From Pseudomonas putida (lineage in GTDB: Bacteria; Pseudomonadota; Gammaproteobacteria; Pseudomonadales; Pseudomonadaceae), in contig CP124529.1 of the NCBI GenBank assembly GCA_029953615.1, positions 3,782,501 to 3,846,500 on the forward strand: a DNA stretch of 64,000 bases, written 5' to 3'. Below, in pieces: positions 1,658-28,577 of this stretch. Both the position numbers and the translations under genes were made by a program. Each line of letters begins with the position of its first letter. The first letter of the stretch is position 1. The notes beneath the pieces are model-generated. The model was given only the letters and a program-made list of their open reading frames with translations. It had not been told where the DNA came from and did no database searches.

Positions 1658-3898
1658 GTGGTAAAAGCAGTAACAACCAAACCCGCGCCAATCATCAACC
1701 GCCTGGTCGTAGTCGGCCTCGGCCTGATCGGTGGCTCGTTCGCCAAGGGCCTGCGTGAAAGCGGCCTGTGCCGCGAAGTGGTCGGTGTCGACCTGGACGC
1801 CCCCTCGCGCAAGCAGGCCGTGGCCCTGGGCGTGGTCGATCGCTGCGAAGAAGATCTTGCCGCCGCCTGTGTCGGTGCCGATGTCATCCAGTTGGCCGTG
1901 CCGATCCTGGCCATGGAAAAAGTGCTGGCCCGCCTGGCCGGGCTCGACCTCGGTACTGCCATCATTACCGACGTCGGCAGTGCCAAGGGCAACGTCGTCC
2001 GTGAGGCGCGAGCCGTCTTCGGTGCCTGCCTGCCGCGCTTCGTCCCCGGCCACCCCATCGCCGGCTCCGAGCAGAGCGGGGTAGAGGCCTCCAACGCTAC
2101 CCTGTTCCGCCGGCACAAGGTCATTCTCACCCCGCTGGCCGAAACCGACCCGGCCGCCCTGGCCTTGGTCGACCGCCTGTGGCGGGCACTGGACGCCGAT
2201 GTGGAACACATGTCGGTCGAACGCCACGACGAAGTGCTTGCCGCCACCAGCCACCTGCCGCACCTGCTGGCGTTCGGCCTGGTCGACTCGCTGGCCAAGC
2301 GCAATGAAAACCTCGAGATCTTCCGGTACGCTGCGGGAGGCTTCCGCGATTTCACGAGAATCGCTGGCAGCGACCCGACCATGTGGCACGACATTTTTCT
2401 CGCCAACCGCGACGCTGTCCTGCGCACGCTTGATACATATCGCAGCGATCTCGACGCCTTGCGCGACGCGATCGCAGAAGGGGACGGGCACCAGCTGCTG
2501 GGTGTATTCACCCGCGCACGCGTTGCCCGCGAGCATTTCAGTAAAATCCTGGCCCGCCGGGCCTATGTGGACGCTATGAACGCCAACGATCTGATTTTCC
2601 TGGCCCAACCCGGTGGCCGCCTGTCCGGGCGAATCCGCGTACCGGGCGACAAGTCGATTTCCCACCGCTCGATCATGCTCGGCTCGCTGGCCGAAGGCAT
2701 CACCGAGGTCGAAGGCTTCCTCGAAGGTGAGGACGCACTGGCGACCTTGCAGGCATTCCGTGACATGGGGGTGGTCATCGAAGGCCCCAACCACGGCCGC
2801 GTGACCATTCACGGCGTTGGCCTGCACGGCCTCAAGCCGCCGCCCGGGCCGCTGTACGTGGGTAACTCGGGTACCTCGATGCGCCTGCTGTCGGGCCTGC
2901 TGGCCGGCCAGCCGTTCGACGTGACCATGACCGGCGACGCTTCGCTGTCCAAGCGCCCGATGAACCGTGTGGCCAACCCGCTGCGCGAAATGGGTGCCGT
3001 GGTCGAGACCGGCCCTGAAGGCCGCCCGCCGTTGACCATCCGCGGTGGCCACAAGCTCAAGGCGCTGACCTACACGCTGCCGATGGCCAGTGCCCAGGTC
3101 AAATCCTGCCTGCTGCTGGCCGGTCTGTACGCCGAAGGCAAGACCACCGTCACCGAGCCTGCACCCACCCGTGACCACACCGAGCGCATGCTGCGCGGCT
3201 TCGGCTACAGTGTCGAGAGCAATGGCCCAGTAGCCTCGCTGCAGTCCGGCGGCAAGCTCACTGCCACCCGTATCGAAGTGCCGGCCGACATCTCCTCGGC
3301 GGCGTTCTTCCTGGTGGCGGCGTCCATTGCCGAAGGCTCCGAGCTGGTGCTGGAACACGTTGGCATCAACCCGACCCGCACCGGCGTAATCGACATCCTG
3401 CGCCTGATGGGCGGCGACATCACCCTGGAAAACCAGCGGGAAGTCGGCGGCGAGCCGGTGGCCGACCTGCGTGTGCGCGGTGCCAGGCTGAAGGGTATCG
3501 ACATTCCTGAAGAGCTGGTGCCACTGGCCATCGACGAGTTCCCGGTACTGTTCGTTGCCGCTGCCTGCGCCGAAGGGCGTACCGTGCTGCGTGGTGCCGA
3601 AGAGCTGCGGGTGAAGGAATCCGACCGCATCCAGGTCATGGCCGACGGCCTGATCACCCTGGGCATCAAGTGCGAGCCGACCCCGGACGGCATCATCATC
3701 GACGGCGGCCAGCTCGGCGGCGGCGAAGTGCACGGCCACGGTGACCACCGTATCGCCATGGCCTTCAGTGTTGCCTCGCTGCGTGCCAGCGCGCCGATCC
3801 GCATCCACGACTGCGCCAACGTCGCCACCTCGTTCCCCAACTTCCTGGCGCTGTGCGCCGAAGTGGGCATCCGCGTGGCGGAAGAGGGCAAGTCGTGA
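1658..3898 (+). CDS. tyrA-aroA: Prephenate dehydrogenase / EPSP synthase fusion (TyrA-AroA)
   Basis: A 746-residue natural fusion. Residues about 8-300 are a prephenate (arogenate) dehydrogenase with the NAD site [15 protein letters not shown], making the tyrosine precursor. From about 316 to the end is 5-enolpyruvylshikimate-3-phosphate synthase, the sixth shikimate step: [39 protein letters not shown] and KESDR are all present. The RDHTE, GDKS, SAQVK and NPTR set fits class II EPSP synthases; glyphosate behaviour cannot be read from this. The start is GTG at 1658 with only a weak ribosome site. The same fusion is known in Pseudomonas. The stop overlaps the cmk start. Confidence 0.95.
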
Positions 3899-4581
3899 GT
3901 GCCCTGGCGCCGGTCATCACCATCGACGGGCCAAGCGGTTCGGGCAAGGGCACGGTCGCCGGGCTGCTGGCTCGCGAGCTGGGCTGGAGGTTGCTGGACT
4001 CCGGCGCGCTGTACCGCTTGCTGGCGTTCAACGCCAGCAACCACGGCGTCGACCTGACCAACGAAGAGCTGCTGACCAAGCTTGCCGCCCATCTGGATGT
4101 GCAGTTTGTCGCCGCCGAGCCCGGTAAGCTGCAACAGATCATCCTCGAGGGTGAGGACGTCAGCAATGTCATCCGCACCGAAACCGTCGGTGCCGGTGCC
4201 TCGATGGTTGCTTCGCTGCCGGCGGTGCGGGATGCGCTGCTGGTGCGCCAGCGCGAATTCCGCGAGGCGCCGGGCCTGATCGCCGACGGCCGCGACATGG
4301 GCACAGTGGTGTTCCCGGATGCGCCGTTGAAAATCTTCCTCACCGCCAGCGCGGAGGAGCGGGCACGTCGCCGCTACCTGCAGTTGAAGGGCAAGGGTGA
4401 AGATGTTAGTCTGTCGAGTCTGCTGGATGAGATTCGTGCGCGCGATGAGCGCGACACCCAACGTGCAGTGGCCCCGCTGAAGCCAGCGGACGATGCCATT
4501 CAGTTGGACTCTACCGAGTTGTCCATCGAGCAGGTGTTGCAACGTATCAGGAGCGAGATCGCGCTGCGCGACCTTCTCTGA
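3895..4581 (+). CDS. cmk: Cytidylate kinase
   Basis: A 228-residue (d)CMP kinase that phosphorylates CMP and dCMP with ATP. The P-loop GPSGSGKGT lies near the N-terminus, [12 protein letters not shown] is the conserved phosphoryl-transfer region, and RRRYLQLK lies in the lid. I chose the GTG at 3895 because it forms a GTGA overlap with the preceding stop and places the P-loop at the usual distance; the open frame extends further upstream (3853) but that part reads as shadow sequence. cmk followed by rpsA is widely conserved. Confidence 0.95.
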
Positions 4582-4646
4582 TAGCCAGGAGAGCAGGCAG
4601 GGGCACCAGTCAACGTCCTGCCGGCTTTCCTTTACTTAAAACAAAC

Positions 4647-4687
4647 CCACATTGTCTGGAATGTGGCGATGGGCGTCTGTTTCGCCC
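4647..4687 (+). promoter_or_regulatory. rpsA leader hairpins (candidate S1 autoregulatory region)
   Basis: Two small hairpins precede rpsA. One pairs CCACATT (4647-4653) with AATGTGG (4660-4666), leaving GTCTGG in the loop; the other pairs GGGCG (4671-4675) with CGCCC (4683-4687). In E. coli the rpsA leader folds into hairpins with GGA in loops that S1 recognises for autogenous control. The similarity of layout is seen; the function is inferred. Confidence 0.4.
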
Positions 4688-4705
4688 GAATCTACAGGAA
4701 TTAAA

Positions 4706-6382
4706 ATGAGCGAAAGCTTTGCAGAACTCTTTGAAGAAAGCCTGAAAACCCTCAATCTTCAGCCGGGTGCCATCATCACCGGTATCGTTGTCGACATCGA
4801 CGGCGACTGGGTTACCGTACACGCTGGCCTGAAGTCCGAGGGCGTCATCCCGCTCGAGCAGTTCTACAACGAAGCTGGCGAGCTGACCATCAAGGTCGGT
4901 GACGAAGTTCACGTTGCGCTGGACGCGGTCGAAGACGGCTTTGGCGAAACCAAGCTGTCCCGTGAAAAAGCCAAGCGCGCCGAGTGCTGGATTGTTCTGG
5001 AAGCAGCTTTCGCCGCCGAAGAAGTGGTCAAGGGCGTTATCAACGGTAAGGTTAAGGGCGGCTTCACTGTCGACGTTAACGGCATCCGTGCGTTCCTGCC
5101 GGGCTCCCTGGTTGATGTCCGCCCTGTGCGCGACACCACCCACCTGGAAGGCAAAGAGCTGGAGTTCAAGGTCATCAAGCTGGACCAGAAGCGCAACAAC
5201 GTTGTCGTTTCCCGTCGCAGCGTGCTGGAAGCCGAGAACAGCGCCGAGCGCGAAGCCCTGCTGGAAACCCTGCAGGAAGGCCAACAGGTCAAGGGTATCG
5301 TCAAGAACCTCACCGACTACGGCGCCTTCGTGGACCTGGGCGGTATCGACGGCCTGCTGCACATCACCGACATGGCCTGGAAGCGCATCAAGCACCCATC
5401 GGAAATCGTTAACGTTGGCGACGAAGTCGACGTACGCGTTCTGAAGTTCGACCGCGAGCGCAACCGCGTTTCGCTGGGTCTGAAGCAGATGGGCGAAGAT
5501 CCGTGGGTAGCTATCACTGCCCGTTACCCAGAAGGTACTCGCGTACAGGCTCGCGTTACCAACCTGACCGACTACGGCTGCTTCGCTGAGCTGGAAGAAG
5601 GCGTTGAAGGTCTGGTACACGTTTCCGAAATGGACTGGACCAACAAGAACATCCACCCGTCGAAAGTCGTTCAGGTTGGCGACGAAGTGGAAGTCATGGT
5701 TCTGGACATCGACGAAGAGCGTCGTCGTATCTCCCTGGGCATCAAGCAGTGCAAGTCCAACCCATGGGAAGACTTCTCCGGCCAGTTCAACAAGGGTGAC
5801 AAGATCACCGGTACCATCAAGTCGATCACCGACTTCGGTATCTTCATCGGCCTGGACGGCGGCATCGACGGCCTGGTTCACCTGTCCGACATCTCCTGGA
5901 ACGAAACCGGCGAAGAAGCCGTACGTCGTTTCAAGAAGGGCGACGAGCTGGAAACCGTCATCCTGTCGGTCGACCCAGAGCGCGAGCGCATCTCCCTGGG
6001 CATCAAGCAGCTGGAAGACGATCCGTTCTCCAACTTCGTTGCTGTCAATGACAAGGGCGCTATCGTCAAGGGCATCGTGAAAGAAGTTGACGCCAAAGGC
6101 GCCATCGTCACCCTGGCCGACGACATCGAAGCTACTCTGAAAGCTTCCGAAATCAGCCGTGACCGCGTTGAAGACGCGCGTAACGTCCTGAAGGAAGGCG
6201 AAGAGATCGAAGCCAAGATCATCAGTGTTGACCGCAAGTCCCGCGTTATCAGCCTGTCCATCAAGTCGAAGGACGATGCTGAAGAGCGCGAAGCCATCCA
6301 GAGCCTGAAAAACGCTCCGGAAGCGGCTGCCGATACCACCATGGCTGCGCTGCTGCGCGAAGCAATGGCCAAGCAGAACTGA
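4706..6382 (+). CDS. rpsA: 30S ribosomal protein S1
   Basis: A 558-residue ribosomal protein that binds mRNA near the ribosome binding site and is needed to start translation on most mRNAs. Six S1 (OB-fold) repeats run from about residue 20 to 530, visible as recurring motifs such as [18 protein letters not shown] and KNLTDYGAF followed by [13 protein letters not shown] strands and RISLGIKQ. I chose the ATG at 4706 ([12 protein letters not shown]), preceded by ACAGGAA; an upstream in-frame ATG at 4652 would run through the leader hairpins. It is followed by a strong terminator. Confidence 0.98.
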
Positions 6383-6398
6383 GTTCTGTTTGATCGGT

Positions 6399-6429
6399 AA
6401 AAAAGGCGACCCTTGGGTCGCCTTTTTTT
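6399..6429 (+). terminator. Rho-independent terminator after rpsA
   Basis: A perfect stem AAGGCGACCC / GGGTCGCCTT with a TT loop is flanked by A and T runs (TTTTTTT on the plus strand), 17 bases after the rpsA stop. Confidence 0.93.
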
Positions 6430-6461
6430 ATGCCGGAAATGGACCATACCGGGGGAGGGGG

Positions 6462-7530
6462 ATGATGTTGGTGTTTGGCGACGTAATGACAGGTCGCGGG
6501 CGTGATAACAATTTCCTGATTATCAGGTTGCTGGCGGCAACCGCTGTGGTGGTTGGGCATTCCTTTGCATTGTCCTACCTGGAGTGCCTGGGGTGTACCG
6601 ACCCGGCGCTGCTGCTGGGTATGCCGGTGCCGGTACACAGCTTGGGCGTTGAAGTGTTCTTCATGGTTAGCGGGTTTTTGATCGCTGCCAGTGGTGAGAG
6701 GAATAGTGCTCGGGATTTCTACCTGGCGCGTGCACTGAGGATCTTGCCGGGTTTGCTGGTGTGCCTGTTGCTCATGGCCTTTGTGCTGGGGCCTGTGGTT
6801 ACCTCGTTGCCGCTGGCCGAGTATTTCGCGAAAGGCCAGGTTTACAAGTACGTTTATAGCCCGCTGCTGATATTCAAGGATGCCCAGTTCGTGCTGCCTG
6901 GGGTGAACTTTACCCCGCGCTTCCATGGGGTTTCGGTCAATGGCAGTTTGTGGACCATTCCGCTGGAAATGCGCATGTACCTGGTGCTGGGGGTGTTGGT
7001 GCTTGGTGGCCAAGGTTTGTCGCAGGCCAATGGCAGGGCTGACACTGGCGGCGCTGGTGATTGCGCTGGGGCTGCATACCCTGCATCCGGCTTATGGGGA
7101 GTACCCGTTCAAGTTGGTGGTATGTTTCCTGGCGGGTTCGGCGTTCTATTCGTGTCGGGCGGTTATTCCGCATGGGTGGTGGCTGCTGCTTGCCTGTGCC
7201 GGGCTGTTCTTGCTGAGCAAGGGGGGGCGCTTTGAGGTGTTCACCTTTGCCATCCTGACCCTTTACGGCACGTTGTACTTTGCTTACTGCCCGCAGGTGA
7301 AACTGCCTCCGTTTGTGCAGGATTACTCGTACGGTATCTACCTGTATGCATTTCCGCTCCAGCAAGTGTTGGCTGCCGCGATGCCATGGGCCGGGCCTTA
7401 CTGGCTGATGTTGGCTGCCGTGCCGGCGTCCTGGTTGGCGGGGTATGTCTCGTGGCAGTTGGTAGAGAAGCCTGCCTTGGCGATGCGCAAGCGCTTTTCC
7501 CAGGCGAGTACCCAGCAGCAGTTGGCCTGA
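6462..7530 (+). pseudogene. Acyltransferase 3 (OafA/YrhL type) split by a frameshift
   Basis: An integral-membrane acyltransferase of the family that O-acetylates polysaccharides and lipids. The first part (from ATG 6462, behind a GGGGGAGGGGG ribosome site) has NNFLIIRLLAATAVVVGHS, with the family histidine, and VFFMVSGFLIA. It loses frame at about 7030-7042, and the rest (LTLAALVIALG to WQLVEKPALAMRKRF) continues in the next frame up to 7530. Removing one G from the GGG run near 7038 would give about 355 residues, a normal length. It sits next to the O-antigen locus and may modify O-antigen, but it is outside the main operon. Either a real mutation or a sequencing insertion. Confidence 0.8.
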
Positions 7531-10212: not shown

Positions 10213-11274
10213 ATGCGAAATGAACGTAGCCCCGGAGTCGAAAATGACGAAGTTGATGTTCTCGAACTTTGGCATGTATTGTGGAGTCGCAAACTGCTCA
10301 TCCTCTCCTGCATTGTTTTAGTTACTGCAGCTGCGCTTGTTTATATCTCGCTCAAGACCCCGATGTACGAAGCCAAGTCTTTTATCCTGCCGCCGACCAA
10401 AAATGATATTGCCCAATTGAACTATGGTCGCACCGAAGGCAGTGGCCTCGAAGTGTTCACATCCAAGGATGTTTACGCGATTTACCTGCGCGCCCTGCAG
10501 TCTGAGTCTCTGCGGCGCCAGTTCTTTCGCACGGTCTATTTGCCTAATTTGCCAGAGGCCGCTCGCCAAGGCTCTCAAGATGCACTTTATGACCAATTTG
10601 GCAAGGTATTGACTGTTGGTCCGGTGGCGGGGGATAGTGCCGAGCGCTTTTTAATCAGGGCGCTGAGCGACGACCCCAAGATGAGTGTGAAGTGGGTAAC
10701 GCGCTTTTCGGAAATGGCCAGTGACACTGCTAAAAAGGCACTGGTCGAAGACGCTGATACTGAAGTCAAGGTGCTGGTCAAGAACCTGGAGCAGCAGATC
10801 CGCAGCGCACGGGAGGCGGCGCACAAGCAGCGTGAAGATCAAATCGCCCGCCTGGAAGAGGCGCTGAAAGTTGCCAAGGCAGTGAAGCTGAGCAAGCCCC
10901 CCATCATTGCCAGTGGCATGAATGCTGAAGTGTCCGGCGATATGCGGGGGGCATTGACCTACATGCGGGGCAGCCAGGCCCTTGAGGCAGAGCTTGCAAA
11001 CCTTCGCGGTCGGGAATCCGACGACCCCTTCGTCGCTGATTTGCGGGAGGTTCAGGAGAAGCTCGACTTCTACCGCAACCTGCAGCTGAACCCGGCGGTG
11101 ATCGAGGTATTTCAGCAGGATGGTGCCATCGAGGTGCCTGATAGCCCGGTCCGGCTTCGCAAATTGCTCATTGTCGCAGGGGGCGTGTTCGCGGGGTTGA
11201 TTCTCGGCGTACTCCTGGCCGCACTTACCCATTTGGTTTCTGCTGAAAGGGAGCGCCGTGTGGGGCGCGCCTGA
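10213..11274 (+). CDS. wzz: O-antigen chain-length determinant
   Basis: A 353-residue polysaccharide co-polymerase that sets the modal length of O-antigen made by Wzy. It shows the family layout: a short cytoplasmic N-terminus (DEVDVLELWHVLWSRK), a membrane helix at about 33-49, a large periplasmic domain with a charged coiled coil (EQQIRSAREAAHKQREDQIARLEEA, given here in part only for orientation: EQQIRSAREAAH), and a C-terminal helix at about 318-340 preceded by a proline-containing segment (VPDSPVRLRK). First gene of the plus-strand operon, as in P. aeruginosa. Confidence 0.93.
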   Translation: MRNERSPGVENDEVDVLELWHVLWSRKLLILSCIVLVTAAALVYISLKTPMYEAKSFILPPTKNDIAQLNYGRTEGSGLEVFTSKDVYAIYLRALQSESLRRQFFRTVYLPNLPEAARQGSQDALYDQFGKVLTVGPVAGDSAERFLIRALSDDPKMSVKWVTRFSEMASDTAKKALVEDADTEVKVLVKNLEQQIRSAREAAHKQREDQIARLEEALKVAKAVKLSKPPIIASGMNAEVSGDMRGALTYMRGSQALEAELANLRGRESDDPFVADLREVQEKLDFYRNLQLNPAVIEVFQQDGAIEVPDSPVRLRKLLIVAGGVFAGLILGVLLAALTHLVSAERERRVGRA

Positions 11275-11349
11275 GCTACCACTCCCCGAGCCTGCATGCT
11301 GCGGAAGAGTCGAATCGATAGTGATGAATTTTAACAAGAGGCTGGTTGC

Positions 11350-12324
11350 GTGAAGCTCATAGAAACAAATATCTCGGACGTAGTCGTTTTTGAACCAACC
11401 GTCTTCGAGGACGACAGGGGCTGGTTCTATGAGTCTTATAGCGAGCCTAAATTCCATGCTCTGCTCAGTGCGCAAGGTATTACCCTTCCACCTTCTTTTG
11501 TTCAGGAAAACTGCTCTTTATCCAAAAAGGGTGTCATGCGCGGCTTGCACTATCAACTTTATCCGTTTGCCCAGGGCAAGTTGGTAAGTGTGGTTCAGGG
11601 TGCGGTGTTCGATGTGGCGGTGGATATCCGCAAAGGCTCCCCTACCTTTGGGCAGTGGGTAGGCAGGGAGCTATCGGCGGCTAACCGCAAGATGATGTGG
11701 GTGCCGGAAGGCTTCGCCCACGGTTTCATCGCGCTGGAAGAAGATACGGTGTTCCAGTACCGCACCACCGATGTCTATTCCAAAGAGCATGAACGCAGCA
11801 TTGCCTGGGATGACCCGGACCTGGCCATCGAGTGGCCACAGGTCGAGGGGCTGCTGATCAGTGACAAGGATGCGGTAGCGCCAAGCCTTGCCGAAGCTGA
11901 TCTGCCACCCTTGATTCTGAAAGGGCAGGCGGAGGACCTTGTCCTTCCTATCATCGGTGATGATCGCGGAAGCCTGATCAGCATTGAAAAGGCACTGAAC
12001 ATCCCGTTCGCCATCCGCCGTGTCTACTACATTTTCGGTACCAAGGCCGGCGTCAGCCGCGGTTTCCATGCTCACCGGGATCTCCAGCAACTGATCATCT
12101 GCCTGGCCGGCAGTTGCCGCATGACCCTGGATGACGGCACCGGTCGGGTTGACCATGTGCTTGACGCACCACAGAAAGCCCTGCTGATCAAGAATATGGT
12201 CTGGCGTGAAATGCATGATTTCAGCGAGGACTGTGTACTCATGGTCATCGCCAGTGAAACCTACGATGAACGCGATTACATTCGCAGTTATGATGACTTC
12301 AAGAGGCTGATCGCCCATGCCTAG
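11350..12324 (+). CDS. RmlC-FdtA fusion: dTDP-4-keto-6-deoxyglucose 3,5-epimerase / 3,4-ketoisomerase
   Basis: A 324-residue fusion of two cupin enzymes. Residues 1 to about 183 are RmlC-like (3,5-epimerase of the L-rhamnose pathway): [15 protein letters not shown] with the catalytic His at 67, QGKLV at 75-79, [18 protein letters not shown] and the YRTTDVY region at 137-143. Residues about 187-324 are FdtA/WxcM-C-like (3,4-ketoisomerase): [29 protein letters not shown] with the HAH pair at 240-242, SCRMTLDDG. Both domains look active and both use dTDP-4-keto-6-deoxy-D-glucose. Start is GTG 11350 behind AAGAGG. The next two genes complete an Fdt/Qdt pathway; no other rmlC is in the window. Galacto versus gluco outcome cannot be decided here. 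Confidence 0.88.
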
Positions 12325-12784
12325 TATTCATGCCCTGGCCGATGTACAAACCGATGCCATCGGTGAGAAAACCAGGATCTGGCAATATGCGGTCATCCTC
12401 AAAGGTGCGCGAATTGGCAGTAACTGCAACATTTGCGCCCACACCCTGATCGAGGGAGGGGTTGTAGTCGGGGACAACGTCACCGTGAAAAGCGGTGTGT
12501 ATCTCTGGGAAGGGCTGGTGATCGAGGACAATGTCTTCATTGGCCCCAATGCTACATTCACCAACGACAGGGTACCGCGCTCCAAATGCTACCCCGAAGC
12601 TTACGAAGTCACTGTGCTGAAGGAAGGCTGCAGCATCGGTGCGAATGCGACATTGCTCCCGGGCGTGACGATTGGCCGACATGCCATGGTAGGTGCCGGT
12701 GCTGTCGTGACCAAGGATGTACCTGATTACTGCGTGGTAGTGGGTAATCCGGCAAAAATAATAAGGGAGCTAGAGCATGGTTGA
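12317..12784 (+). CDS. dTDP-3-amino-3,6-dideoxyhexose N-acetyltransferase (FdtC/QdtC type)
   Basis: A 155-residue left-handed beta-helix acetyltransferase with many hexapeptide repeats ([67 protein letters not shown]). The KSGVYLWEG and TFTNDR stretches fit the WlbB/WbpD/QdtC subgroup that N-acetylates amino sugars on nucleotides with acetyl-CoA. It overlaps both neighbours by 8 bases. Lying between the ketoisomerase and the aminotransferase, it probably makes dTDP-Fuc3NAc or dTDP-Qui3NAc. Confidence 0.85.
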
Positions 12785-13889
12785 TTTTCTGAATCTGAAG
12801 GCCGTCAATAAACAGTATCGCGAAGAACTGTTGCAGGCGTGCGCCGATGTGATCGACTCCGGCTGGTACATCGGCGGTAGCGCTCTGGCCCGCTTTGAAA
12901 GCAACTTTGCCGCTTATTGCGGTACCGCTCATTGCGTTGGCGTGGCAAACGGCCTGGATGCGCTGACCTTGACCTTGACCGCCTGGAAGCAACTGGGGCG
13001 AGTGAAGCAGGGTGATGAAGTCATCGTTCCAGCCAATACCTACATTGCGAGCATCCTGGCAATTACCGCCAGCGGACTGGAGCCGGTGCTCGTCGAGCCG
13101 GACCCTGCAACGTTCAATATCGATATCTCCCTCATTCGCCAGGCGATCACCGACAAGACCCGGGTCATCCTGCCCGTGCACTTGTATGGGCAGATTGCAG
13201 ACATGAAGGCGATCAACGAGATTGCCACCGAATATGATTTGCTGGTGCTCGAAGACTCGGCCCAGGCCCATGGCGCCTCTATCGATGGCAAGCGGGCAGG
13301 CAACTGGGGGAATGCTTCGGGCTTCAGTTTCTATCCAGGCAAGAACCTGGGCGCGCTCGGCGATGCCGGGGCAATCACCACCTCGGACGCCGAGTTGGCG
13401 GAAGTGCTGCGGGCCCTCAGAAACTATGGTTCCCATGAGAAATACAAGAACTTGTACGTTGGTGTGAACAGCCGCCTGGACGAGATCCAGGCGGCAATGC
13501 TGGACGTGAAGCTCAAGTATCTCGATGACGAAATCAGCCGGCGCCGGCATATCACCACGTGCTACCGCGCAGGCATTCACAATACTCATATCGCCCTGCC
13601 GCAGAATAGCGCTGCCGAGCAGCATGTGTGGCATCTGTATGTGGTACGGACGGCCCACAGAAACGAACTGCAGCAACACCTTCGCGAGCGGGGTGTACAG
13701 ACGCTGGTTCACTACCCGATCCCGCCTCACAAGCAACAGGCCTACCGCCAGTACAACGGTTTGAGCCTGCCGCTGACTGAGAAGATTCATGATGAGGTGC
13801 TCAGCCTGCCTGTGGACCCAACCATGAGCGACACGGACATCCAGACGGTCATCGATGCCTGCAACAGTTTTACTGTGTCCGGGCAATAA
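12777..13889 (+). CDS. dTDP-3-keto-6-deoxyhexose 3-aminotransferase (FdtB/QdtB type, DegT family)
   Basis: A 370-residue PLP-dependent sugar aminotransferase of the DegT/DnrJ/EryC1 family. [20 protein letters not shown] at the N-terminus, the EDSAQAHGA segment with the PLP-binding Asp, and [18 protein letters not shown] with the PLP lysine are clear, followed by [12 protein letters not shown]. Length is normal. With its neighbours it should aminate the 3-keto sugar made by the FdtA domain using glutamate. It overlaps the acetyltransferase by 8 bases. Confidence 0.9.
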
Positions 13890-13892
13890 TTC

Positions 13893-15164
13893 ATGACGTT
13901 GATCAAGACCAGTCTGCTGAATGCTATTGCTGTTGTTGTAAAGATGGCGACATTGCTGGGGCTCAACAAGGTGCTGGCCCTTTATGTAGGGCCATCGGGT
14001 TACGCGGCGATCGGGCAGTTGCAGAACGCCGTGACCATGTTCACCACACTGGCCAGCGGCGCTGTCAGCACAGGGGTAACCAAGTACACGGCGGAGTTTG
14101 CTGATCGTCCAGATGAGCAATACAGGATCTGGCGAACTGCCGGGACGTTGTCACTGCTGGTTTCGTGTGTGCTGGCCGTGCTGATCGTGGTCCTGCGAGC
14201 ACCATTGGCCAGCTGGTTTTTCAATGATGAAACACTTGCGCCGGTATTGGTGTGGTTTGCCTCTACCCTGGTGTTTTTTGCTTTCAACTCGTTGCTGCTG
14301 GGCATTCTGAACGGCAAGAAGGATGTTCGGCGCTATGTGCTTGCCAACATTCTCGGCAGCCTGATATCGCTGGTGGTGACTTGTGCCTTGACCATCACGC
14401 TGGGTTTGTACGGTGCGCTGGTTTCGCTGGCTGTGTACCAGTCGTTGAGCTTCGTGGCGACCCTGGTCATCTGCATGCGCACGCAGTGGTTCAGCCTTAC
14501 CGGTTTTATCGGCGCGCTGGACAGGCAGTCCCTGTCCCGGCTTGCAAAGTTTGCCCTCATGGCCGTGGTGACGGCGTGCTCGCTGCCCGTATGTCATGTG
14601 TTCATCCGGGACTACCTGGGAACGGAGTTCGGCTGGGATCATGCAGGTTACTGGGAGGCCATGTGGCGTTTGAGCACGGCCTATCTCATGTTGATCACCA
14701 CGACACTTGCGGTCTATTACCTGCCCAGGCTCTCGGAGCTTTCCGATGCAGGTGAATTGCGTCGGGAAATCCTCCAAGGGTACAAGCTCATCCTGCCCCT
14801 GACTGTTGCTGCCGGCCTGGTTATCTACCTGCTCAGGGACTTCATCATCCATGTGCTGTTCTCGGAGTCATTTCTGCCCATGCGTGAACTGTTCGCATGG
14901 CAGATGGTCGGAGACAGCCTGAAAGTAGTCAGTTGGCTGATGGCCTACCTGATGCTCGGTAAGGCGCTTACCCGCTTGTATCTGGTCACCGAGATTCTCT
15001 CGACACTTTCGCTGTATGCACTGACTGTGTATTTCACCCAGCTGTGGGGGTATGAAAAAGTTACCCTTGCTTACGCGGCAAACTACCTGTTGTACGGAAT
15101 CGTCATGTATTTCTCGGTATTCCGTCGTTTGCACATTATTGTTGGCGATACGGCGCGGAGCTGA
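13893..15164 (+). CDS. wzx: O-antigen flippase (WzxE-like)
   Basis: A 423-residue polytopic membrane protein with about 12 hydrophobic segments, of the polysaccharide-transporter part of the MOP superfamily. It should flip undecaprenyl-PP-linked O-units across the inner membrane. The N-terminal LNAIAVVVKMATLLGLNKVLALYVGPSG stretch (conserved core LNKVLALYVGPSG), LQNAVTMFTTLASGAVSTG and NGKKDVRRYV resemble WzxE of enterobacterial common antigen more than other Wzx types. A flippase for units with an Fdt-type sugar fits the genes just before it. Confidence 0.85.
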   Translation: MTLIKTSLLNAIAVVVKMATLLGLNKVLALYVGPSGYAAIGQLQNAVTMFTTLASGAVSTGVTKYTAEFADRPDEQYRIWRTAGTLSLLVSCVLAVLIVVLRAPLASWFFNDETLAPVLVWFASTLVFFAFNSLLLGILNGKKDVRRYVLANILGSLISLVVTCALTITLGLYGALVSLAVYQSLSFVATLVICMRTQWFSLTGFIGALDRQSLSRLAKFALMAVVTACSLPVCHVFIRDYLGTEFGWDHAGYWEAMWRLSTAYLMLITTTLAVYYLPRLSELSDAGELRREILQGYKLILPLTVAAGLVIYLLRDFIIHVLFSESFLPMRELFAWQMVGDSLKVVSWLMAYLMLGKALTRLYLVTEILSTLSLYALTVYFTQLWGYEKVTLAYAANYLLYGIVMYFSVFRRLHIIVGDTARS

Positions 15165-15170
15165 GTAAAG

Positions 15171-16604
15171 ATGAAGGACGTCATCGAACAGTTACATGGA
15201 CGCATCCTTGGCGCTGAAGCTGCGCAGGCATTGGTGCAGGCACAGGTTTATGGGGCATTGCTCTGGGCGGTGGACCTGGGTATCTACGACGCCGCTGCCC
15301 TGGAGCGCCAGCTGGTGGCTCGCTGCGCCAACCAGGTCACGCTGCCGGCTGCCTGCGGGGTATCGCGCGGCTGCCTGCATGTGGTCAGCGAACCTTATAT
15401 GCAAGGAGGGCACACCCGGTTGATGGAGCGCCTGGCGCACATGCACGAGGGGCCTGTCGACCTGCTGGTCGCGCGCAGCGCCAAGCCCCAGGTGCTCGAA
15501 CGCCTGGCAGGCTATTTCGCCCATATCGAGGTGGCGCGCGGCGATGACCCGTGCGCCCGCCTGCAGTCCATCGTCGACACCCTGTCGCAGTACGACAAGG
15601 TGGTGCTGCACATTCATCCGGACGACATCATCACCACCGTAGCCTGTGGCCTGCTGAAGCAGCAGCGTGGTGCCGCGCTGACGGTGTACTTCGTCAATCA
15701 CGCCGACCACGTGTTCAGCTTTGGCGCGTCGGTGGCCGATGTGTATTTCGAGATCAGCGCCTACGGGCACCACCTGGACAAGAAAAAGCACCTCACCTGC
15801 CAGAAGAGCTTCCTGGCTATCCCGATCGAGACCAGCGGCGCCAAAGTGACGGATGCCGTGCCCACTCACCAGCGCATCAAGGTGTTCAGCGCTGCCTCGG
15901 CGGCCAAGTACAAGCCCCACGGCGGCCTGGACATGCGCCCGTCGATCACGGCGATTCTCCAGCGCTTCCCCAATGCCGAGTGCTGGATCATCGGTGCCAA
16001 TCCCCTGACCAACACCTGGTGGTGGACAGTGAAGTTGCGCTACCCCAGGCGTTTCTTCATCCGCCGCCATCTGCCGTACAAAGCCTACCTGGCCTTTGCG
16101 GAAAAAGCCGACTTCTACCTGGACAGCTACCCGATACCCGGTGGCACGGCGTTCGCCGAGCAGTTGCTCAAAGGCCGGCGTTGCGTGGGCCTGGTGGCGC
16201 CGATCCAGGGCTACTCACCCGCGGACAGCCTGAAGGTGGCCAGCGTGGACCAGCTGCTGGCCAGCATTGCCCAGCCCCGGCCCAGTGCCCCGGTGGTGGA
16301 GGCGGTGCAGCGGGTCAACTCGGTGGAGGCGGTGAAAGCGCGCTACCTCGCTTGCATCGAGCGCGGCGAACTCAGCGAGAACGAACTGGCAGCCATGCTG
16401 CCGTGGACGGGCAACCTCGATTTCATGAAACCGACAGGTAAGGTCACTAGCATGATCCCTGCGGATGTCTTCGATGCCCTGTGCCGCATAGACACGAAGC
16501 TGGCGTTGCGAACGCTGCTTGCGTATGCCTGGGTGCCGAGAATCAAGCTCTTGATCAAGGTCACCCTGTTCCGGCTGGCTAGGCTGACCAGAGCGCGAGG
16601 GTGA
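15171..16604 (+). CDS. Putative glycosyltransferase (family not assigned)
   Basis: A 477-residue soluble protein lying between wzx and wzy. I do not recognise a named family. The middle holds alternating hydrophobic strands, and 330-380 has YLDSYPIPGGTAFAEQLLKGRRCVGL, whose PGGTAFAEQLL part resembles the donor-binding region of GT-B glycosyltransferases. FSAASAAKYKPHGGL (about 240) could be the start of the second Rossmann domain. The 50-residue tail is basic and may touch the membrane. Overlap with wzy (GTGA) supports a role in O-unit assembly. Confidence 0.55.
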   Translation: MKDVIEQLHGRILGAEAAQALVQAQVYGALLWAVDLGIYDAAALERQLVARCANQVTLPAACGVSRGCLHVVSEPYMQGGHTRLMERLAHMHEGPVDLLVARSAKPQVLERLAGYFAHIEVARGDDPCARLQSIVDTLSQYDKVVLHIHPDDIITTVACGLLKQQRGAALTVYFVNHADHVFSFGASVADVYFEISAYGHHLDKKKHLTCQKSFLAIPIETSGAKVTDAVPTHQRIKVFSAASAAKYKPHGGLDMRPSITAILQRFPNAECWIIGANPLTNTWWWTVKLRYPRRFFIRRHLPYKAYLAFAEKADFYLDSYPIPGGTAFAEQLLKGRRCVGLVAPIQGYSPADSLKVASVDQLLASIAQPRPSAPVVEAVQRVNSVEAVKARYLACIERGELSENELAAMLPWTGNLDFMKPTGKVTSMIPADVFDALCRIDTKLALRTLLAYAWVPRIKLLIKVTLFRLARLTRARG

Positions 16605-17873
16605 GTGTGATCAGGATCTTTATCGGCGTGCTGTTCTGCCTGCTGTTCTTCAGCGACTTCGTCGTGTTGACGCTGGGGCTGGGCAGTGTGTTTGCCGGTT
16701 GGCGAGAAATGCTCAGCCTGCTGATGATCATGTGGCTGCTGCTGCGGGCGCTGGCCAGCGTTACGGCGCGTGGCAGGCTCAACCTCGAAGTCGGGCGGTG
16801 GTTGCTGGTCGTGCTGTTCTTTGCCTTCCTGTACCTGCTGTTCGGCGACCTGAGCGCGTCGTCGGCGCGCATGTTCCGCGCACTGGCCGTGCCGGTGTTC
16901 ATTGGCATGGCGGTGGCCATCTGGGCCCAGGCGGTGTCGACCGAGAAGAAGCTGCGCCATGTGTACTGGTCAGTGCTGGCAATGAGCGTACTCACTGGCG
17001 TGTATGCGTTGTATCAGTACCTGACCATCGCTTCGGCCGAGCAGTTCTGGTATTGGCCGCTGCTTACCGCCAAAGGCTATGAACTGCAACCCTACAACTC
17101 GATGCGTGACGGGCTGCCGCGGGTGTCCGGTTTCTTTACCGGCACGCTGGAGTTTTCTGCAGTCATCCTCAATACCGCCGCCATGACCCTGGCCGTGTTG
17201 CTCAGCGGGCGCAATTGGTCCTTGATCCGGCGCCTGCTGCTGAGTGCCGCCTTCCTGTTGTTGTGCGGGCTGATCGCGATCGGTTCGGTGCGCACGGCCA
17301 TGATCGGCCTGGTGTGCATCTGCTCGATGCTGGTGGCGGCCCGGATGCTGCGCACGGCCTGGCTGATCTCGCTGTTGGGCTACGTGCAGTTCATTGGCTT
17401 GACCGTGGCGATTTTCGCCTACCTGTCGATGGGCTATACCCAGGATTTGTCGGCACTGGACCGCGAGCGCCAGTGGCTGCACATGTATGAGGTGCTGAGC
17501 GCGGCATCCCATGGGCTATGGCTTTGGCGCGGTTGGCCCGGGCCAGCCACACTGGTTCGATTCGTTCTGGCTCAACCTGCTGGCCACCTGCGGTTTGGTC
17601 GGCCTGCTGATCATGGCCGGGTTGATCCTTTGGTACCACAAGCTGGTGACGATCATCGTCCGGGACAGGGCCCATGCCAGCGCCTGGAAAAACGGCCTGG
17701 GCAACTTCGTGATTGCCAGCTACCCGTTCTTCCTGAGTTCGTTCTTTTTCCAGTCCTATACGAACAGTGTTGTCCTTTACATATTCGCGATCGTGGTGAT
17801 GGTGATCATTGGTGAAAACAGAAGAACAAAAGTTGCGCCTGGCAGTCCTGATCGTTCTGTATCGGAAAACTAG
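16601..17873 (+). pseudogene. wzy: O-antigen polymerase (Wzy) split by a frameshift
   Basis: A polytopic membrane protein with about 10-11 hydrophobic segments. The first frame (GTG 16601 to about 17500) gives GVLFCLLFFSDFVVL, the long periplasmic loop (LPRVSGFFTGTLEFSAVILN) and IGSVRTAMIGL. From about 17502 the frame changes and HPMGYGFGAVGPGQPHWFDSFWLNLL follows, the hallmark GYGFG...DSFWL region of the O-antigen ligase/polymerase family. Removing one base in GCGCGG near 17502 would give about 423 residues. It lies in the right place for Wzy, and none else is seen. If the break is real, the strain would make at most single-unit O-antigen from this operon. Confidence 0.8.
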
Positions 17874-19385: not shown

Positions 19386-20473
19386 GAACGTTGCATTTTG
19401 TCCATCTGCTGAATGACTACAGCGGTAGCCCCCGGGTATTGAACCAGACCATCACCGCGCTGCAGCAAAGTGGCGCCGATTGCACCCTGCATGTGGGCAG
19501 CAGCGGCCACGGCGTGCTAGACGAACTGCAGGTACGCACCTGCAAGTTTGCCTACAAGCGCTTCGATAACCGCTGGTTGACCTTGCTGGCGTATGCCGGG
19601 TCGCAGGTGGCGCTGTTCTTCAGCCTGTTGCGTCAGGTGCGGCCGGGGTCGGTCGTGCTGGTGAACACCATGCTGCCCTTCGGTGCCGCCCTGGCCGCCC
19701 GCTTGCGCGGTGCCAAGGTGGTTTACCACGTGCACGAAACCTCCATCCGGCCTGCGTTGCTAAAGGCGTTTCTGCGTCGGGTGATTGCAGGTTGTGCCAG
19801 CAAGGTGGTCTACGTGTCGAAGTACCTGCAGGTACAAGAGGGGGTGGCCGGCGTGCCGGCGGTAACCGTGTACAACGGCCTGGCCGAGGGCTTCCAGCAG
19901 CAGGCGATGGCCACGCCATACCAGCACCTGCACGACGGCCGCTTCAATGTGCTGATGCTGGCGTCGTTGAAGGGCTACAAGGGGGTGGACGAATTCGTTG
20001 CCCTGGCCACGGCACTGGCCGCGGACCCTGTGCTGAAATTTACCTTGGTGCTCAATGCCAGCCCGCAGGAAGTGGACGCCTACTTCGCCGGCAAGGCGCT
20101 GCCGCAAAACCTGATGCTCAGCCCGGCCAGTGCCGAGGTGGCGAAGTTCTACCGCAATGCCAGCCTGGTGCTGAACCTGTCCCATGTGGATGGCTGGGTC
20201 GAAACCTTTGGCCTGACCATTCTCGAGGCGATGGCTTTCGGCATCCCGACCATCGTGCCCCCGGTAGGCGGCCCGGTCGAACTGGTCAGCGACGGGGTAG
20301 AGGGCTATCAGATCGATTCGAAGAACCATGAACAACTGGCGCGCACCGTTTCGCGCCTGTCGCAGGACTCACAGGCGTGCCAGGAGTTGTCCGAGCGCGC
20401 ACGCAGGAAAGCGAGTGAGTTTTCCACTGCCAACTTCCAGAAAAATATCGTGATGGTGTTTGATGACCTATAA
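19382..20473 (+). CDS. GT4 glycosyltransferase
   Basis: A 363-residue GT-B fold enzyme. N-terminal LHFVHLLNDYSGSPRVLNQT, then VYNGLAEGF at the domain junction and ETFGLTILEAMAFGIPTIVPPVGGPVELV, the family's E-x7-E donor-nucleotide motif, at about 280-303. It should be a retaining transferase acting on the lipid-linked O-unit. The start (ATG 19382) overlaps the previous stop by 4 bases and the end overlaps the next gene by 11. Confidence 0.88.
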   Translation: MRTLHFVHLLNDYSGSPRVLNQTITALQQSGADCTLHVGSSGHGVLDELQVRTCKFAYKRFDNRWLTLLAYAGSQVALFFSLLRQVRPGSVVLVNTMLPFGAALAARLRGAKVVYHVHETSIRPALLKAFLRRVIAGCASKVVYVSKYLQVQEGVAGVPAVTVYNGLAEGFQQQAMATPYQHLHDGRFNVLMLASLKGYKGVDEFVALATALAADPVLKFTLVLNASPQEVDAYFAGKALPQNLMLSPASAEVAKFYRNASLVLNLSHVDGWVETFGLTILEAMAFGIPTIVPPVGGPVELVSDGVEGYQIDSKNHEQLARTVSRLSQDSQACQELSERARRKASEFSTANFQKNIVMVFDDL

Positions 20474-21572
20474 GATTGCAGTGATCGGTACGGTAGGTTT
20501 ACCCGCTCAATACGGTGGTTGGGAAACACTGACCGAACAATTGGTGCGCAACCTGCCGGGTGACTGCGAACTCACCGTTTATTGCAGTGCGCCCCATTAC
20601 CCTCAGCGGCCGAAGTTTTTCGAGCGTGCCCGCCTGGTCTACCTGAACCTGAAGGCCAATGGCGTGCAGAGCATCCCGTACGATGTGCTGAGCATGCTGC
20701 ACGCCTACCGCAAGCATGACTTGATGCTGATTCTGGGGGTTTCCGGATGCATAGCCCTGCCATTCATGCGCCTGCTGACCCGCAAGCCGATCGTGGTGAA
20801 CATCGACGGCTATGAATGGAAGCGCGCCAAGTGGTCCAACTTCGCCCGCTGGTTCCTGAAGCTGTCCGAAGCGGTGGCCGTGCGTTTTGCCCATGCGGTC
20901 ATAACCGACAACAAAGTGCTGCAGGAATACGTGACCGCCGAATACAACAAGCCCAGCGAACTGATTGCCTATGGTGGCGATCAGGCCCGGGCCGGTGAGC
21001 CTGGCCAGCAAGCCCGCCAGGCATACCCGTTCCTGGGTGCGCCCTATGCCTTTACGGTGTGCCGCATCGAGCCGGAGAACAACATCCATGTCATTCTCGA
21101 AGCCTTCGCCGGCTCTGGCATGCCGCTGGCGATCATCGGCAACTGGAACCACAGCGAATATGGCGTGCAACTGCGCAAGCAATACGAAGGGGTAAGCAAC
21201 ATTCACCTGCTGGACCCGATCTACGACGTGGAGCAACTGAGCCCGCTGCGCAGCAATGCCACGGTGTACCTGCATGGCCACAGTGCCGGCGGTACCAACC
21301 CGTCGCTGGTCGAAGCCATGTGGCTGGGCCTGCCGGTGGTAGCCTTCGACGTGTCGTTCAACCGCGCCACCACCGAAGACCAGGCGCTGTACTTTGCCGA
21401 CAGTACCTCGCTGCGCAACCACGCCCAGGCACTGTTTGCCGATGAAGGGGCCCGTGCGCAACTGTCTGCGCGCCTGCACGAAATTGCCAATCGCCGTTAC
21501 CGCTGGTCGGTGGTGGCAGACCAGTACCGCAGCGTGTTCACCCGCCTGCTGGGTCGGGCGGGGAGAGGCTGA
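20463..21572 (+). CDS. GT4 glycosyltransferase with DUF1972 N-domain (rhamnosyltransferase-like)
   Basis: A 369-residue GT-B enzyme. The N-terminal IAVIGTVGLPAQYGGWETLTEQLV is the DUF1972 signature found in rhamnosyltransferases and related enzymes. The second domain carries CRIEPENNIHVILEAF and HSAGGTNPSLVEAMWLGLPVVAFD as the donor site. L-rhamnose is a plausible donor because rmlBDA is in the same operon; this is inference. I chose ATG 20463 over TTG 20460. Confidence 0.85.
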   Translation: MTYKIAVIGTVGLPAQYGGWETLTEQLVRNLPGDCELTVYCSAPHYPQRPKFFERARLVYLNLKANGVQSIPYDVLSMLHAYRKHDLMLILGVSGCIALPFMRLLTRKPIVVNIDGYEWKRAKWSNFARWFLKLSEAVAVRFAHAVITDNKVLQEYVTAEYNKPSELIAYGGDQARAGEPGQQARQAYPFLGAPYAFTVCRIEPENNIHVILEAFAGSGMPLAIIGNWNHSEYGVQLRKQYEGVSNIHLLDPIYDVEQLSPLRSNATVYLHGHSAGGTNPSLVEAMWLGLPVVAFDVSFNRATTEDQALYFADSTSLRNHAQALFADEGARAQLSARLHEIANRRYRWSVVADQYRSVFTRLLGRAGRG

Positions 21573-25726: not shown

Positions 25727-26797
25727 ATGACTATTCTGGTAACTGGTGGTGCGGGTTTCATTGGCGCGAACTTCGTCCTGGACTGGCTGGCCGGCAATGA
25801 CGAACCCGTGGTCAACCTCGACAAACTCACCTACGCAGGCAACCTGCAAACCCTGAGCAGCCTGCAGGACGACAAGCGCCATATCTTCGTGCACGGCGAT
25901 ATCGGCGATTCCGAACTGGTTGCCCGCCTGCTCGAGCAGCACCAGCCGCGTGCCATCGTCAACTTTGCTGCCGAGTCCCATGTGGACCGCTCGATCCACG
26001 GCCCGGAAGATTTCATCGAAACCAACATCGTCGGCACCTTCCGCCTGCTGGAAGCCGTGCGCGCCTACTGGGGCGGCCTGGACGCACAGGCGCGCCAGGC
26101 GTTCCGCTTCCTGCATGTGTCCACCGACGAAGTGTACGGCTCGCTGGCAGCCGACGAACCGGCCTTCACCGAAACCCACCAGTACCAGCCCAACAGCCCG
26201 TACTCGGCCAGCAAGGCCGCCAGCGACCATCTGGTGCGCTCGTATCACCATACCTACGGCCTGCCGGTGCTGACCACCAACTGCTCGAACAACTACGGCC
26301 CGTACCACTTTCCGGAAAAACTCATCCCGCTGATGATCGTCAACGCCCTGGCCGGCAAGCCGCTGCCGGTGTACGGCGACGGCCAGCAGATCCGTGACTG
26401 GCTGTATGTAAAGGATCACTGCAGCGCTATCCGCCGCGTGCTGGAAGCCGGTAAAACCGGCGAGGTTTACAACGTGGGCGGCTGGAACGAAAAGCCCAAC
26501 CTGGAGATCGTCAACCGCGTGTGTGCCTTGCTGGACGAACTGCGCCCCCGCGCCGACGGCAAGCCCTACGCCGAACAGATCACCTACGTGACCGACCGCC
26601 CCGGCCATGACCGCCGCTACGCCATCGACGCCCGCAAGCTCGAGCGCGAACTGGGCTGGAAGCCTGCCGAAACCTTCGAAACCGGCATTCGCAAGACCGT
26701 GGCCTGGTACCTCGACAACCAGGAATGGGTGCAGAACGTACAGTCTGGCAGCTACCGCGACTGGGTCGAAAAAAATTACGCAGGGCGCTCGGCATGA
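25727..26797 (+). CDS. rmlB: dTDP-glucose 4,6-dehydratase
   Basis: A 356-residue extended SDR that makes dTDP-4-keto-6-deoxy-D-glucose. [45 protein letters not shown] (catalytic Y-x3-K) and [17 protein letters not shown] are all present. A short 99-base gap separates it from wbpM; it overlaps rmlD by 4 bases. Its product feeds both halves of the RmlC-FdtA fusion encoded 14 kb upstream. Confidence 0.96.
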
Positions 26798-27690
26798 AGA
26801 TTCTGCTACTGGGCAAGGACGGCCAGGTAGGCTGGGAATTGCAACGCAGCCTGGCCCCGCTGGGCCAGGTGCTGGCGCTCAATGCCCGCAGCCGGGCACA
26901 CTGCGGTGACCTGGCCAACCTGCCGGGCCTGGCCGAAACCGTGCGTGCCTATGCCCCTGATGTCATCGTCAACGCCGCCGCCTACACCGCCGTGGACAAG
27001 GCGGAAAGCGAGCGCGAGCAAGCCTTCAAGGTAAACGCCGACGCCGTTGGCGTGCTGGCCCGTGCTGCTGCCGATTGCGGCGCACTGCTGGTGCATTATT
27101 CCACCGACTACGTGTTCCCGGGGCAGGGCACCCAGGCCTGGCGCGAAGACGACGCCGTTGGCCCGCTGAATGCCTATGGCGAAAGCAAGCTGGCTGGCGA
27201 ACAGGCCATCCAGGCTGCCGGTTGCCGGCACCTGATCTTCCGCACCTGCTGGGTATATGCCGCACGCGGCAACAACTTCGCCAAAACCATGCTGCGCCTG
27301 GCTGCGGAACGCGAAAGCCTGGGTGTGATCGACGACCAGCACGGCGCCCCGACCGGTGCCGAACTGATCGCCGATATCACCGCCCACGCCATCACCGCCA
27401 CCCACCACGACCCGACCCTGGCCGGCCTGTACCACCTGGCGGCAGCCGGCGAAACCACCTGGTGCGGCTACGCCCGTTATGTGCTGGAGCAGGCAGAAGC
27501 CCTGGGTGTGCCCTTGAAAGCCCATGCCGAACAGGTCAACCCGTTGACCACCGATGCCTACCCGACCCCGGCCAAGCGGCCGGCCAATTCGCGTCTGGAC
27601 ACCCATAAACTGCAGAAAGCCTTTGCCCTGACCCTGCCAGACTGGCGCCTGGGTGTGGCTCGCATGCTTACGGAAATACACGAGAAATGA
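26794..27690 (+). CDS. rmlD: dTDP-4-dehydrorhamnose reductase
   Basis: A 298-residue SDR catalysing the last step of dTDP-L-rhamnose synthesis. [13 protein letters not shown] is the nucleotide site, [22 protein letters not shown] and YGESKLAGE the active site, and [17 protein letters not shown] follows. I chose ATG 26794 because it forms the ATGA overlap with rmlB; the open frame runs back to 26725 but that part is shadow. It overlaps rmlA by 4 bases. Confidence 0.96.
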
Positions 27691-28577
27691 CCACTATGAA
27701 GCGTAAAGGCATCATTCTGGCGGGCGGGTCGGGTACCCGCCTGCATCCGGCCACCTTGGCAATTTCCAAGCAACTGCTGCCGGTGTACGACAAACCGATG
27801 ATCTATTACCCGCTGACCACCCTGATGCTGGCGGGTATCCAGGACATTCTGATCATCTCCACCCCGCAAGACACCCCGCGCTTCGAGCAATTGCTGGGTG
27901 ACGGCCACCAGTGGGGCATCAACATCAGCTACGCCGTGCAGGCCTCGCCAGACGGCCTGGCACAGGCATTCCTGATTGGTGAAGACTTCATTGGCAACGA
28001 TCTGTCGGCGCTGGTGCTGGGCGACAACATCTATTACGGCCACGACTTCCAGCAATTGCTGCGCAATGCCATGGACCGCGGCGAAGGTGCCAGCGTGTTC
28101 GCCTACCACGTGCACGACCCCGAGCGTTATGGCGTGGTGGAGTTCGATGACCAGGGCAAGGCGATCAGCCTGGAAGAAAAACCGGCCAAGCCGAAGTCCA
28201 GCTATGCCGTGACCGGGTTGTATTTCTATGACAAGGACGTGGTCGAGATTGCCAAAGGCATCAAGCCGTCGGCACGGGGCGAGTTGGAGATCACCGACTT
28301 GAACCGGGTGTACTTGGAGCAGAACCGCTTGTCGGTGGAGATCATGGGGCGCGGGTATGCCTGGCTGGATACCGGGACGCATGATTCGTTGCTGGAGGCT
28401 AGCGGGTATATTGCGACCATTGAACGCCGGCAGGGGTTGAAGGTGGCTTGCCCCGAAGAGGTGGCGTACCGGCAGGGGTGGATTGGGGCGGAGCAGCTGC
28501 TGAAGCTGGCTGAGCCGTTGGCCAAGAATGGGTATGGGCAGTATTTGAAGCGTTTGGTGGGGGATAGGGTTTATTGA
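27687..28577 (+). CDS. rmlA: Glucose-1-phosphate thymidylyltransferase
   Basis: A 296-residue nucleotidyltransferase that makes dTDP-glucose, the first step of the pathway. [13 protein letters not shown] is the nucleotide-binding motif, [17 protein letters not shown] the sugar-phosphate region, GDNIYYG the metal site and [10 protein letters not shown] follows. ATG 27687 overlaps the rmlD stop; ATG 27696 (MKRKGIIL) is the other candidate. Last gene of the plus-strand operon. No rmlC follows, unlike the usual rmlBDAC order. Confidence 0.96.

Follow-up and report, generated by a model that had tools for sequence, protein, structure and literature searches.

An RmlC-FdtA fusion in a Pseudomonas putida O-antigen locus: a putative branch-point enzyme of dTDP-sugar synthesis

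The locus described here raises the question of why two enzymes that are predicted to compete for one nucleotide sugar, dTDP-4-keto-6-deoxyglucose, should be encoded by a single open reading frame, and of whether both are active. The frame lies in the window, by which we mean the whole stretch of 64,000 nucleotides that was analysed (Pseudomonas putida contig CP124529.1, positions 3,782,501 to 3,846,500). To our knowledge, the enzyme fusions known from the dTDP-sugar pathway join consecutive steps; the fusion of RmlC with FdtA, which was seen repeatedly in Pseudomonas and Legionella, links two exits of a branch point.

The fusion gene and its locus

An earlier note on this DNA had placed a two-domain polypeptide, RmlC followed by FdtA, at 11350-12324 of the window. 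This was borne out, as the open reading frame has exactly these coordinates (Table 1) and Pfam analysis placed PF00908 on residues 5-182 (E 1.7e-71) and PF05523 on residues 199-320 (E 9.4e-47; 158.5 bits against a gathering cut-off of 23). With 238.8 bits against a cut-off of 155.75, the RmlC half also matched the curated TIGR01221 equivalog of NCBIfam. Pfam found no domain beyond these two on the chain, which encoded neither a hexapeptide acetyltransferase domain nor an RmlD domain. Alignment of an AF2 model of the fusion (pLDDT 92.7, pTM 0.74) with Foldseek's top chains, using VIA-align, showed that the fold is kept in both halves, RmlC-like at the N-terminus and FdtA-like at the C-terminus. 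Judged by its domains, residues and fold, the frame is an RmlC-type 3,5-epimerase fused to an FdtA-type 3,4-ketoisomerase.

The active-site motifs claimed in the earlier note, His67 and the HAH at 240-242, were found at those positions, and the window protein also contained four RmlC residues that it had not mentioned, Arg64, Lys77, Tyr137 and Asp174. We take His67 to be the catalytic base and, from the alignment and RmlC residue numbering, Tyr137 to be the acid. Tyr143 was ruled out as the catalytic tyrosine as there is a Trp at that site in P. aeruginosa RmlC. An excerpt of PMC9095892 gives the catalytic pair of RmlC as a His base and a Tyr acid (H64/Y134 in its numbering). In the FdtA half, His240 and His242 form the HxH pair that corresponds to His49/His51 of A. 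thermoaerophilus FdtA, residues which are marked by the mutants 2pae (H49N) and 2pak (H51N).

The N-terminal half was similar to P. aeruginosa RmlC 2ixi (TIGR01221, PF00908) in profile, residues and fold, with 56% identity; however, the solved RmlC chains that were matched contain the epimerase domain only (most have 176-225 residues), whereas the window chain adds the FdtA half. The C-terminal half shared the HxH motif and the fold of FdtA/QdtA (PF05523; 2pa7, 4o9e) and was 59% identical to 2pa7. WxcM/FdtD (4mzu) likewise has an FdtA-type domain fused C-terminally to another dTDP-sugar enzyme, but its partner is an acetyltransferase of the same branch; in the window the domain is joined to the competing RmlC, with the acetyltransferase encoded by a gene of its own. 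Arg206 of the window FdtA half agrees with FdtA. Residue 286 is Arg in the window protein and His in 2pa7. Among 131 aligned fusion rows (24 locus ORFs, 106 database proteins and the window protein, which recurs as one of the locus ORFs), 120 had Arg and 11 had His at this site. Arg206 and residue 286 correspond to the sites changed in QdtA Y17R/R97H, and Arg plus His there is presumably the signature of a galacto product. Because the window protein has Arg286 and 2pa7 has His, its FdtA half may yield either the gluco or the galacto form, and both the Fuc3NAc and the Qui3NAc types are candidates for the 3-amino sugar.

Information per site was 1.18 bits in the linker region (183-200), compared to 3.14 for residues 1-182 and 3.19 for residues 201-320. 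Unlike FdtA 2pa7, the window FdtA half has no ATG or GTG start of its own in the linker, which contains a single TTG only, and translation of a separate FdtA from an internal start was rejected on this ground. An ATG or GTG was present in the linker of 16 of the 24 locus ORFs, with a Shine-Dalgarno-like sequence ahead of the start in just 2.

Table 1 Features of the fusion and its locus (window coordinates)
Feature	Position	Strand	Evidence and remarks
Wzz chain-length regulator	10213..11274	+	PF02706
Shine-Dalgarno-like AAGAGG	11336..11341	+	8 nt 5' of fusion GTG start; sequence reading
RmlC-FdtA fusion	11350..12324	+	324 aa, GTG start; ORF, PF00908 and PF05523, AF2 model
RmlC half	11350..11898	+	residues 1-183; Arg64, His67, Lys77, Tyr137, Asp174
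Linker	11899..11943	+	residues 184-198; poorly conserved
FdtA half	11944..12321	+	residues 199-324; Arg206, Arg237, His240, His242
FdtC-type hexapeptide N-acetyltransferase	12317..12784	+	PF00132; best PDB match WxcM-like 4mzu, 215.9 bits
FdtB/QdtB-type aminotransferase	12777..13889	+	PF01041; 5u1z 453.8 bits, QdtB 3frk 365.1 bits
Wzx-type flippase	13893..15164	+	PF13440; WzxE model 278.3 bits, below cut-off 325
DUF1972 glycosyltransferase	20460..21572	+	PF09314; nearest model rhamnosyltransferase Cps2T, NF046071 181.8 bits, far below cut-off 500
rmlB	25727..26797	+	only one above cut-off in genome
rmlD	26794..27690	+	only one above cut-off in genome; start codon by reading
rmlA	27687..28577	+	only one above cut-off in genome

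From its gene content, the region is an O-antigen locus in which the fusion sits with FdtC-, FdtB-, RmlA-, RmlB- and RmlD-type genes. The order is wzz, fusion, FdtC-type gene, FdtB-type gene and wzx, with overlaps of 8 bp between the fusion and fdtC and 8 bp between fdtC and fdtB. Further along the locus are PF00953 and PF02719 genes, which were read as wbpL and wbpM types. No rmlC follows rmlA in the rmlB-rmlD-rmlA group of the window. A second, separate canonical rmlC was found 1.16 Mb away in the same genome (2632709-2633218), between neighbours that were interpreted as genes for a sensor kinase and for agmatine deiminase; rhamnose in this genome therefore need not depend on the fusion.

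Several other frames of the window were noted. A 477-aa protein of the O-antigen locus (15171-16604) had no Pfam or NCBIfam match. A putative O-antigen polymerase-like membrane protein (16601-17873) seems to be continued in another frame (17511-17873), a possible frameshift, and neither piece had a Pfam match. An Acyltransferase_3-type gene (6390-7530) seemingly lies across two frames (6390-7235 and 6925-7530), of which the second gave no Pfam match; a sequencing error or a frameshift may be the cause. Two overlapping ORFs without a Pfam match on the minus strand (30796-32112 and 32000-32965) look like parts of one asparagine-synthetase-like gene.

Distribution and origin of the fusion

The earlier note had proposed a protein-database search for the two-domain architecture, and this revealed it to be widespread: at least 8000 homologues were scored, and among the best 120 of these, numbers 1 to 106 had both domains, which makes at least 106 clusters. 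Named sources of these fusions included Pseudomonas, Legionella and Zooshikella. Among the matches listed, the function-bearing names were dTDP-4-dehydrorhamnose (or dTDP-6-deoxy-D-glucose) 3,5-epimerase, and one entry was a 'hypothetical protein'. As the names seen refer to RmlC only, the FdtA function, and a 3-amino sugar in the O-antigen, are overlooked. The supposition of the earlier note that an RmlC-FdtA fusion was undescribed thus stood in one respect only: no description was found in the open-licence PMC literature, which was the scope of the search, but the architecture is common in databases, entered as dTDP-4-dehydrorhamnose 3,5-epimerase. In an excerpt of PMC10327509 the RmlC and FdtA domains are given on separate proteins. 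According to an excerpt of PMC6556577, Prymnesium parvum and other microalgae encode an RmlC/RmlD fusion; this also has RmlC in a fused chain, but it is eukaryotic and joins consecutive steps of one pathway rather than the exits of a branch point.

The full fusion was found in 11 of 398 genomes of the window's genus, and three relatives in this genus encoded the same open frame with 92-98% protein identity. Twenty loci with long-frame FdtA matches in the genus (L034-L053) were considered as further fusions and rejected, since they had no in-frame RmlC half, and are probably WxcM-type. Using the FdtA half to query named genomes, the best 80 of 288 loci comprised 16 fused loci, 5 abutting rmlC-fdtA pairs and 59 others (57 unfused fdtA and 2 WxcM-type); these proportions describe the best 80 and are no census, with at most 10 kb read on each side of a locus. 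Merging the genus and named sets gave 24 distinct fusion genomes, three being common to both sets at the same coordinates. Additionally, 690 of 72,556 plasmid records matched, all at below 60% identity, and in one record a match spanned 80% or more of the query. An FdtC-type gene was seen on the flanks (up to 10 kb) of just 5 of the 16 fused loci (L112-L161), so the other fused loci may acylate the amino sugar differently.

Twelve distinct rmlC-fdtA tandem pairs were found, with inferred start codons. The two genes overlapped as ATGA in eight pairs, GTGA in one and TAATG in two (one of which was read by eye from the bases), and one pair was arranged otherwise. The tandem pairs sit in the same kind of operon as the fusion and were present in at least 8 of the 398 genus genomes. 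The Salmonella Dakar O28 O-antigen cluster, as given in an excerpt of PMC2905691, has an rmlC (3884-4435) that overlaps fdtA (4428-4829), and its polymer contains rhamnose; these are two overlapping genes, unlike the fusion of the window. Since overlapping rmlC-fdtA genes exist, a fusion is a plausible next step, and such a gene pair, still extant, is the likely ancestor of the fusion.

In an RmlC tree, the separate rmlC of the window genome was outside a branch (SH-aLRT 98) that united most fused rows (44 of 46) and tandem rows (9 of 12) with 18 of the 45 single ones. The RmlC tree required 10 label changes (at least 4 forced by strong branches) and the FdtA tree 5 (at least 2 forced); both trees were quick and built without bootstrap from few columns. 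The FdtA tree did not include 18 WxcM-type rows, and among the 'single' rows from the database some could be truncated at contig ends. A single origin of the fusion is not supported by these trees, in which the pattern tentatively suggests more than one gain or loss of the fusion.

Sole-RmlC genomes and the state of the RmlC half

The fusion was the only intact RmlC (PF00908) in 8 of the 24 fusion genomes, namely G174, G315, P. capeferrum (G401) and five Legionella, a 'sole' status that comes mostly from draft assemblies. As five of the eight are Legionella, they are not independent. Another intact rmlC was present in the other 16 of 24. All five RmlC residues were kept in 8/8 sole-RmlC genomes, and rmlD was above the cut-off in all eight as well as in 17/17 fusion genomes tested. 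Each of the 10 genomes searched had a single rmlB match with an E value of 1e-80 or below; eight of them were fusion genomes, six of these being sole-RmlC genomes. The other PF00908 match of P. capeferrum was a 41-bit fragment with an in-frame stop. This fragment (L229:1831-2079) is what is left of a separate rmlC, as would fit with the fusion having replaced it.

The core operon was rmlB-rmlA-rmlD, without rmlC, in both sole-fusion genomes read (G174 and G401). It was rmlB-rmlA-rmlD in all three sole-tandem genomes read (G414, G296 and G390) and rmlB-rmlA-rmlC-rmlD in both genomes read that have a separate rmlC (G250 and G186). Among the best 80 of 288 loci, on flanks of up to 10 kb, another rmlC was absent from 7/7 fused loci with rmlD nearby and present in 9/9 unfused fdtA loci with rmlD. 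One unfused locus, L166, had rmlC near fdtA without rmlD on the stretch read. In the same 80 loci, rmlD was found in 7/16 fused versus 9/59 unfused loci (Fisher p 0.033), a weak difference that ignores relatedness; the argument is instead built on whether a separate rmlC is there. The order in L150 and L153 was rmlB-rmlD-rmlA-fusion. It is difficult to account for the sole-RmlC genomes, together with the rmlC-less operons, if the precursor of rhamnose is not made there by the RmlC half, and the sole-RmlC genomes argue that this half is a working rhamnose enzyme. Rhamnose operons that seem to have no rmlC can be complete, given a fusion elsewhere.

Both halves of the window fusion are under purifying selection. 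The dN/dS against four near relatives was 0.026-0.041 for the RmlC half and 0.008-0.034 for the FdtA half, and was 0.04 or below in both halves against the three genus relatives that share the frame; against P. capeferrum it was 0.135 and 0.094 respectively, with dS near saturation. In the window fusion the two halves are under roughly equal constraint, despite the separate rmlC.

Across the 131 fusion rows, the RmlC set R64/H67/K77/Y137/D174 was complete in 121; nine rows differed at one or more sites and one was truncated at the start. Eight FdtA sites, including both His of the HxH motif, were invariant in 131/131, so that change was one-way, the RmlC sites sometimes being lost and the FdtA sites never. 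One of the nine differing rows (P0105) is only 270 aa long and its difference may be an end effect. G033 carried H67R, K77N and Y137C in its RmlC half and G250 carried Y137C; the FdtA half was intact in both, and each genome had at least one separate rmlC. Compared with the window protein, G033 had 41% identity in its RmlC half and 61% in its FdtA half, whereas across the rows the two halves differed by a median of less than 1%. In G033 the fusion follows rmlB and rmlD with a gap of a size fitting rmlA, and its place beside rmlD is no argument for activity because its RmlC half has decayed. The changes in nine rows and the truncation of one indicate that some relatives can do without the RmlC half. 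Such decay is as expected if catalysis by the RmlC half is maintained only in genomes that need it, or if this half has turned into a scaffold. Loss of RmlC residues with an intact FdtA half, seen in L063 (G250), L064 (G033), P0096 and P0098, marks a possible pseudoenzyme half. As tandem, fused and half-decayed forms coexist, the evolutionary steps can be compared directly.

Proposed function and alternatives

Both halves of the fusion probably work, a prediction from its recurrence and from the sole-RmlC genomes. We consider it likely, with good confidence, that the fusion is a bifunctional branch-point enzyme, born by the merger of rmlC and fdtA, whose halves compete for dTDP-4-keto-6-deoxyglucose and whose gain is equal co-expression. 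The N-terminal RmlC half would 3,5-epimerise this sugar towards dTDP-L-rhamnose, which RmlD would complete. The C-terminal FdtA half would isomerise the same sugar to a 3-keto sugar, from which FdtB-type amination and FdtC-type acetylation would give a dTDP-3-acetamido-3,6-dideoxyhexose. Both halves would be fed from the pool made by a single RmlA and RmlB. The fusion may have arisen when overlapping rmlC-fdtA genes of polysaccharide operons merged, and its benefit would most likely be the co-expression of both branch enzymes in equal amounts: because the halves share one substrate, there is no intermediate between them to channel, and equal dosage is the simplest benefit. The fusion is thus a natural system for the effect of fusing enzymes on flux when there is nothing to channel.

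More tentatively, the fused branch point could hold the competing enzymes at 1:1 in an architecture that itself sets the split between rhamnose and the 3-amino sugar, with the RmlC half of one lineage acting as a non-catalytic scaffold or regulator of FdtA. Under the suggestion of the earlier note, control of the ratio or channelling, the fusion would fix the flux of L-rhamnose against that of the 3-amino sugar, and RmlB might dock on the chain; this appears rather unlikely. It would account for the recurrence of fusions and overlapping pairs, and the single rmlB match in each of the 10 genomes searched means that the branches share one pool; however, no intermediate passes from half to half, and the variable linker, with an Asp174-to-Arg206 spacing of 32-37 residues in 104 of 107 rows, favours a tether over a fixed tunnel. 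Another intact rmlC is also kept in 16/24 fusion genomes, and the second rmlC of the window genome means that the nucleotide-sugar ratio there is not set by the fusion alone.

This separate rmlC also allows a view of the RmlC half as a passenger in the window genome, redundant or structural, with FdtA at work and the separate gene supplying rhamnose. The relatives G033 and G250 speak for it, as they have altered RmlC catalytic residues and retain FdtA and a separate rmlC. We judge this improbable for the window, since its protein has all five RmlC residues under a constraint about equal to that of the FdtA half, and eight other genomes have no intact RmlC besides the fusion. A bifunctional enzyme with competing halves fits the window better than serial action, in which RmlC would form the L-form 4-keto sugar and FdtA would isomerise it towards an L-configured 3-amino-3,6-dideoxyhexose. 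Known fusions do link consecutive enzymes, such as the Prymnesium RmlC/D of the excerpted PMC6556577, but the presence of rmlD in 17/17 fusion genomes tested, the 59% identity of the FdtA half to 2pa7, an FdtA that acts on the D-sugar, and the absence of rmlC near 49/59 unfused fdtA loci (best 80 of 288, flanks of up to 10 kb) make serial action very improbable. The chance that the frame is an artefact, two genes joined through a sequencing or assembly error, is negligible: a single-base error could join tandem relatives that lie one frame apart, but independent sequences have the same architecture, and its presence in 24 genomes and at least 106 protein clusters refutes this explanation.
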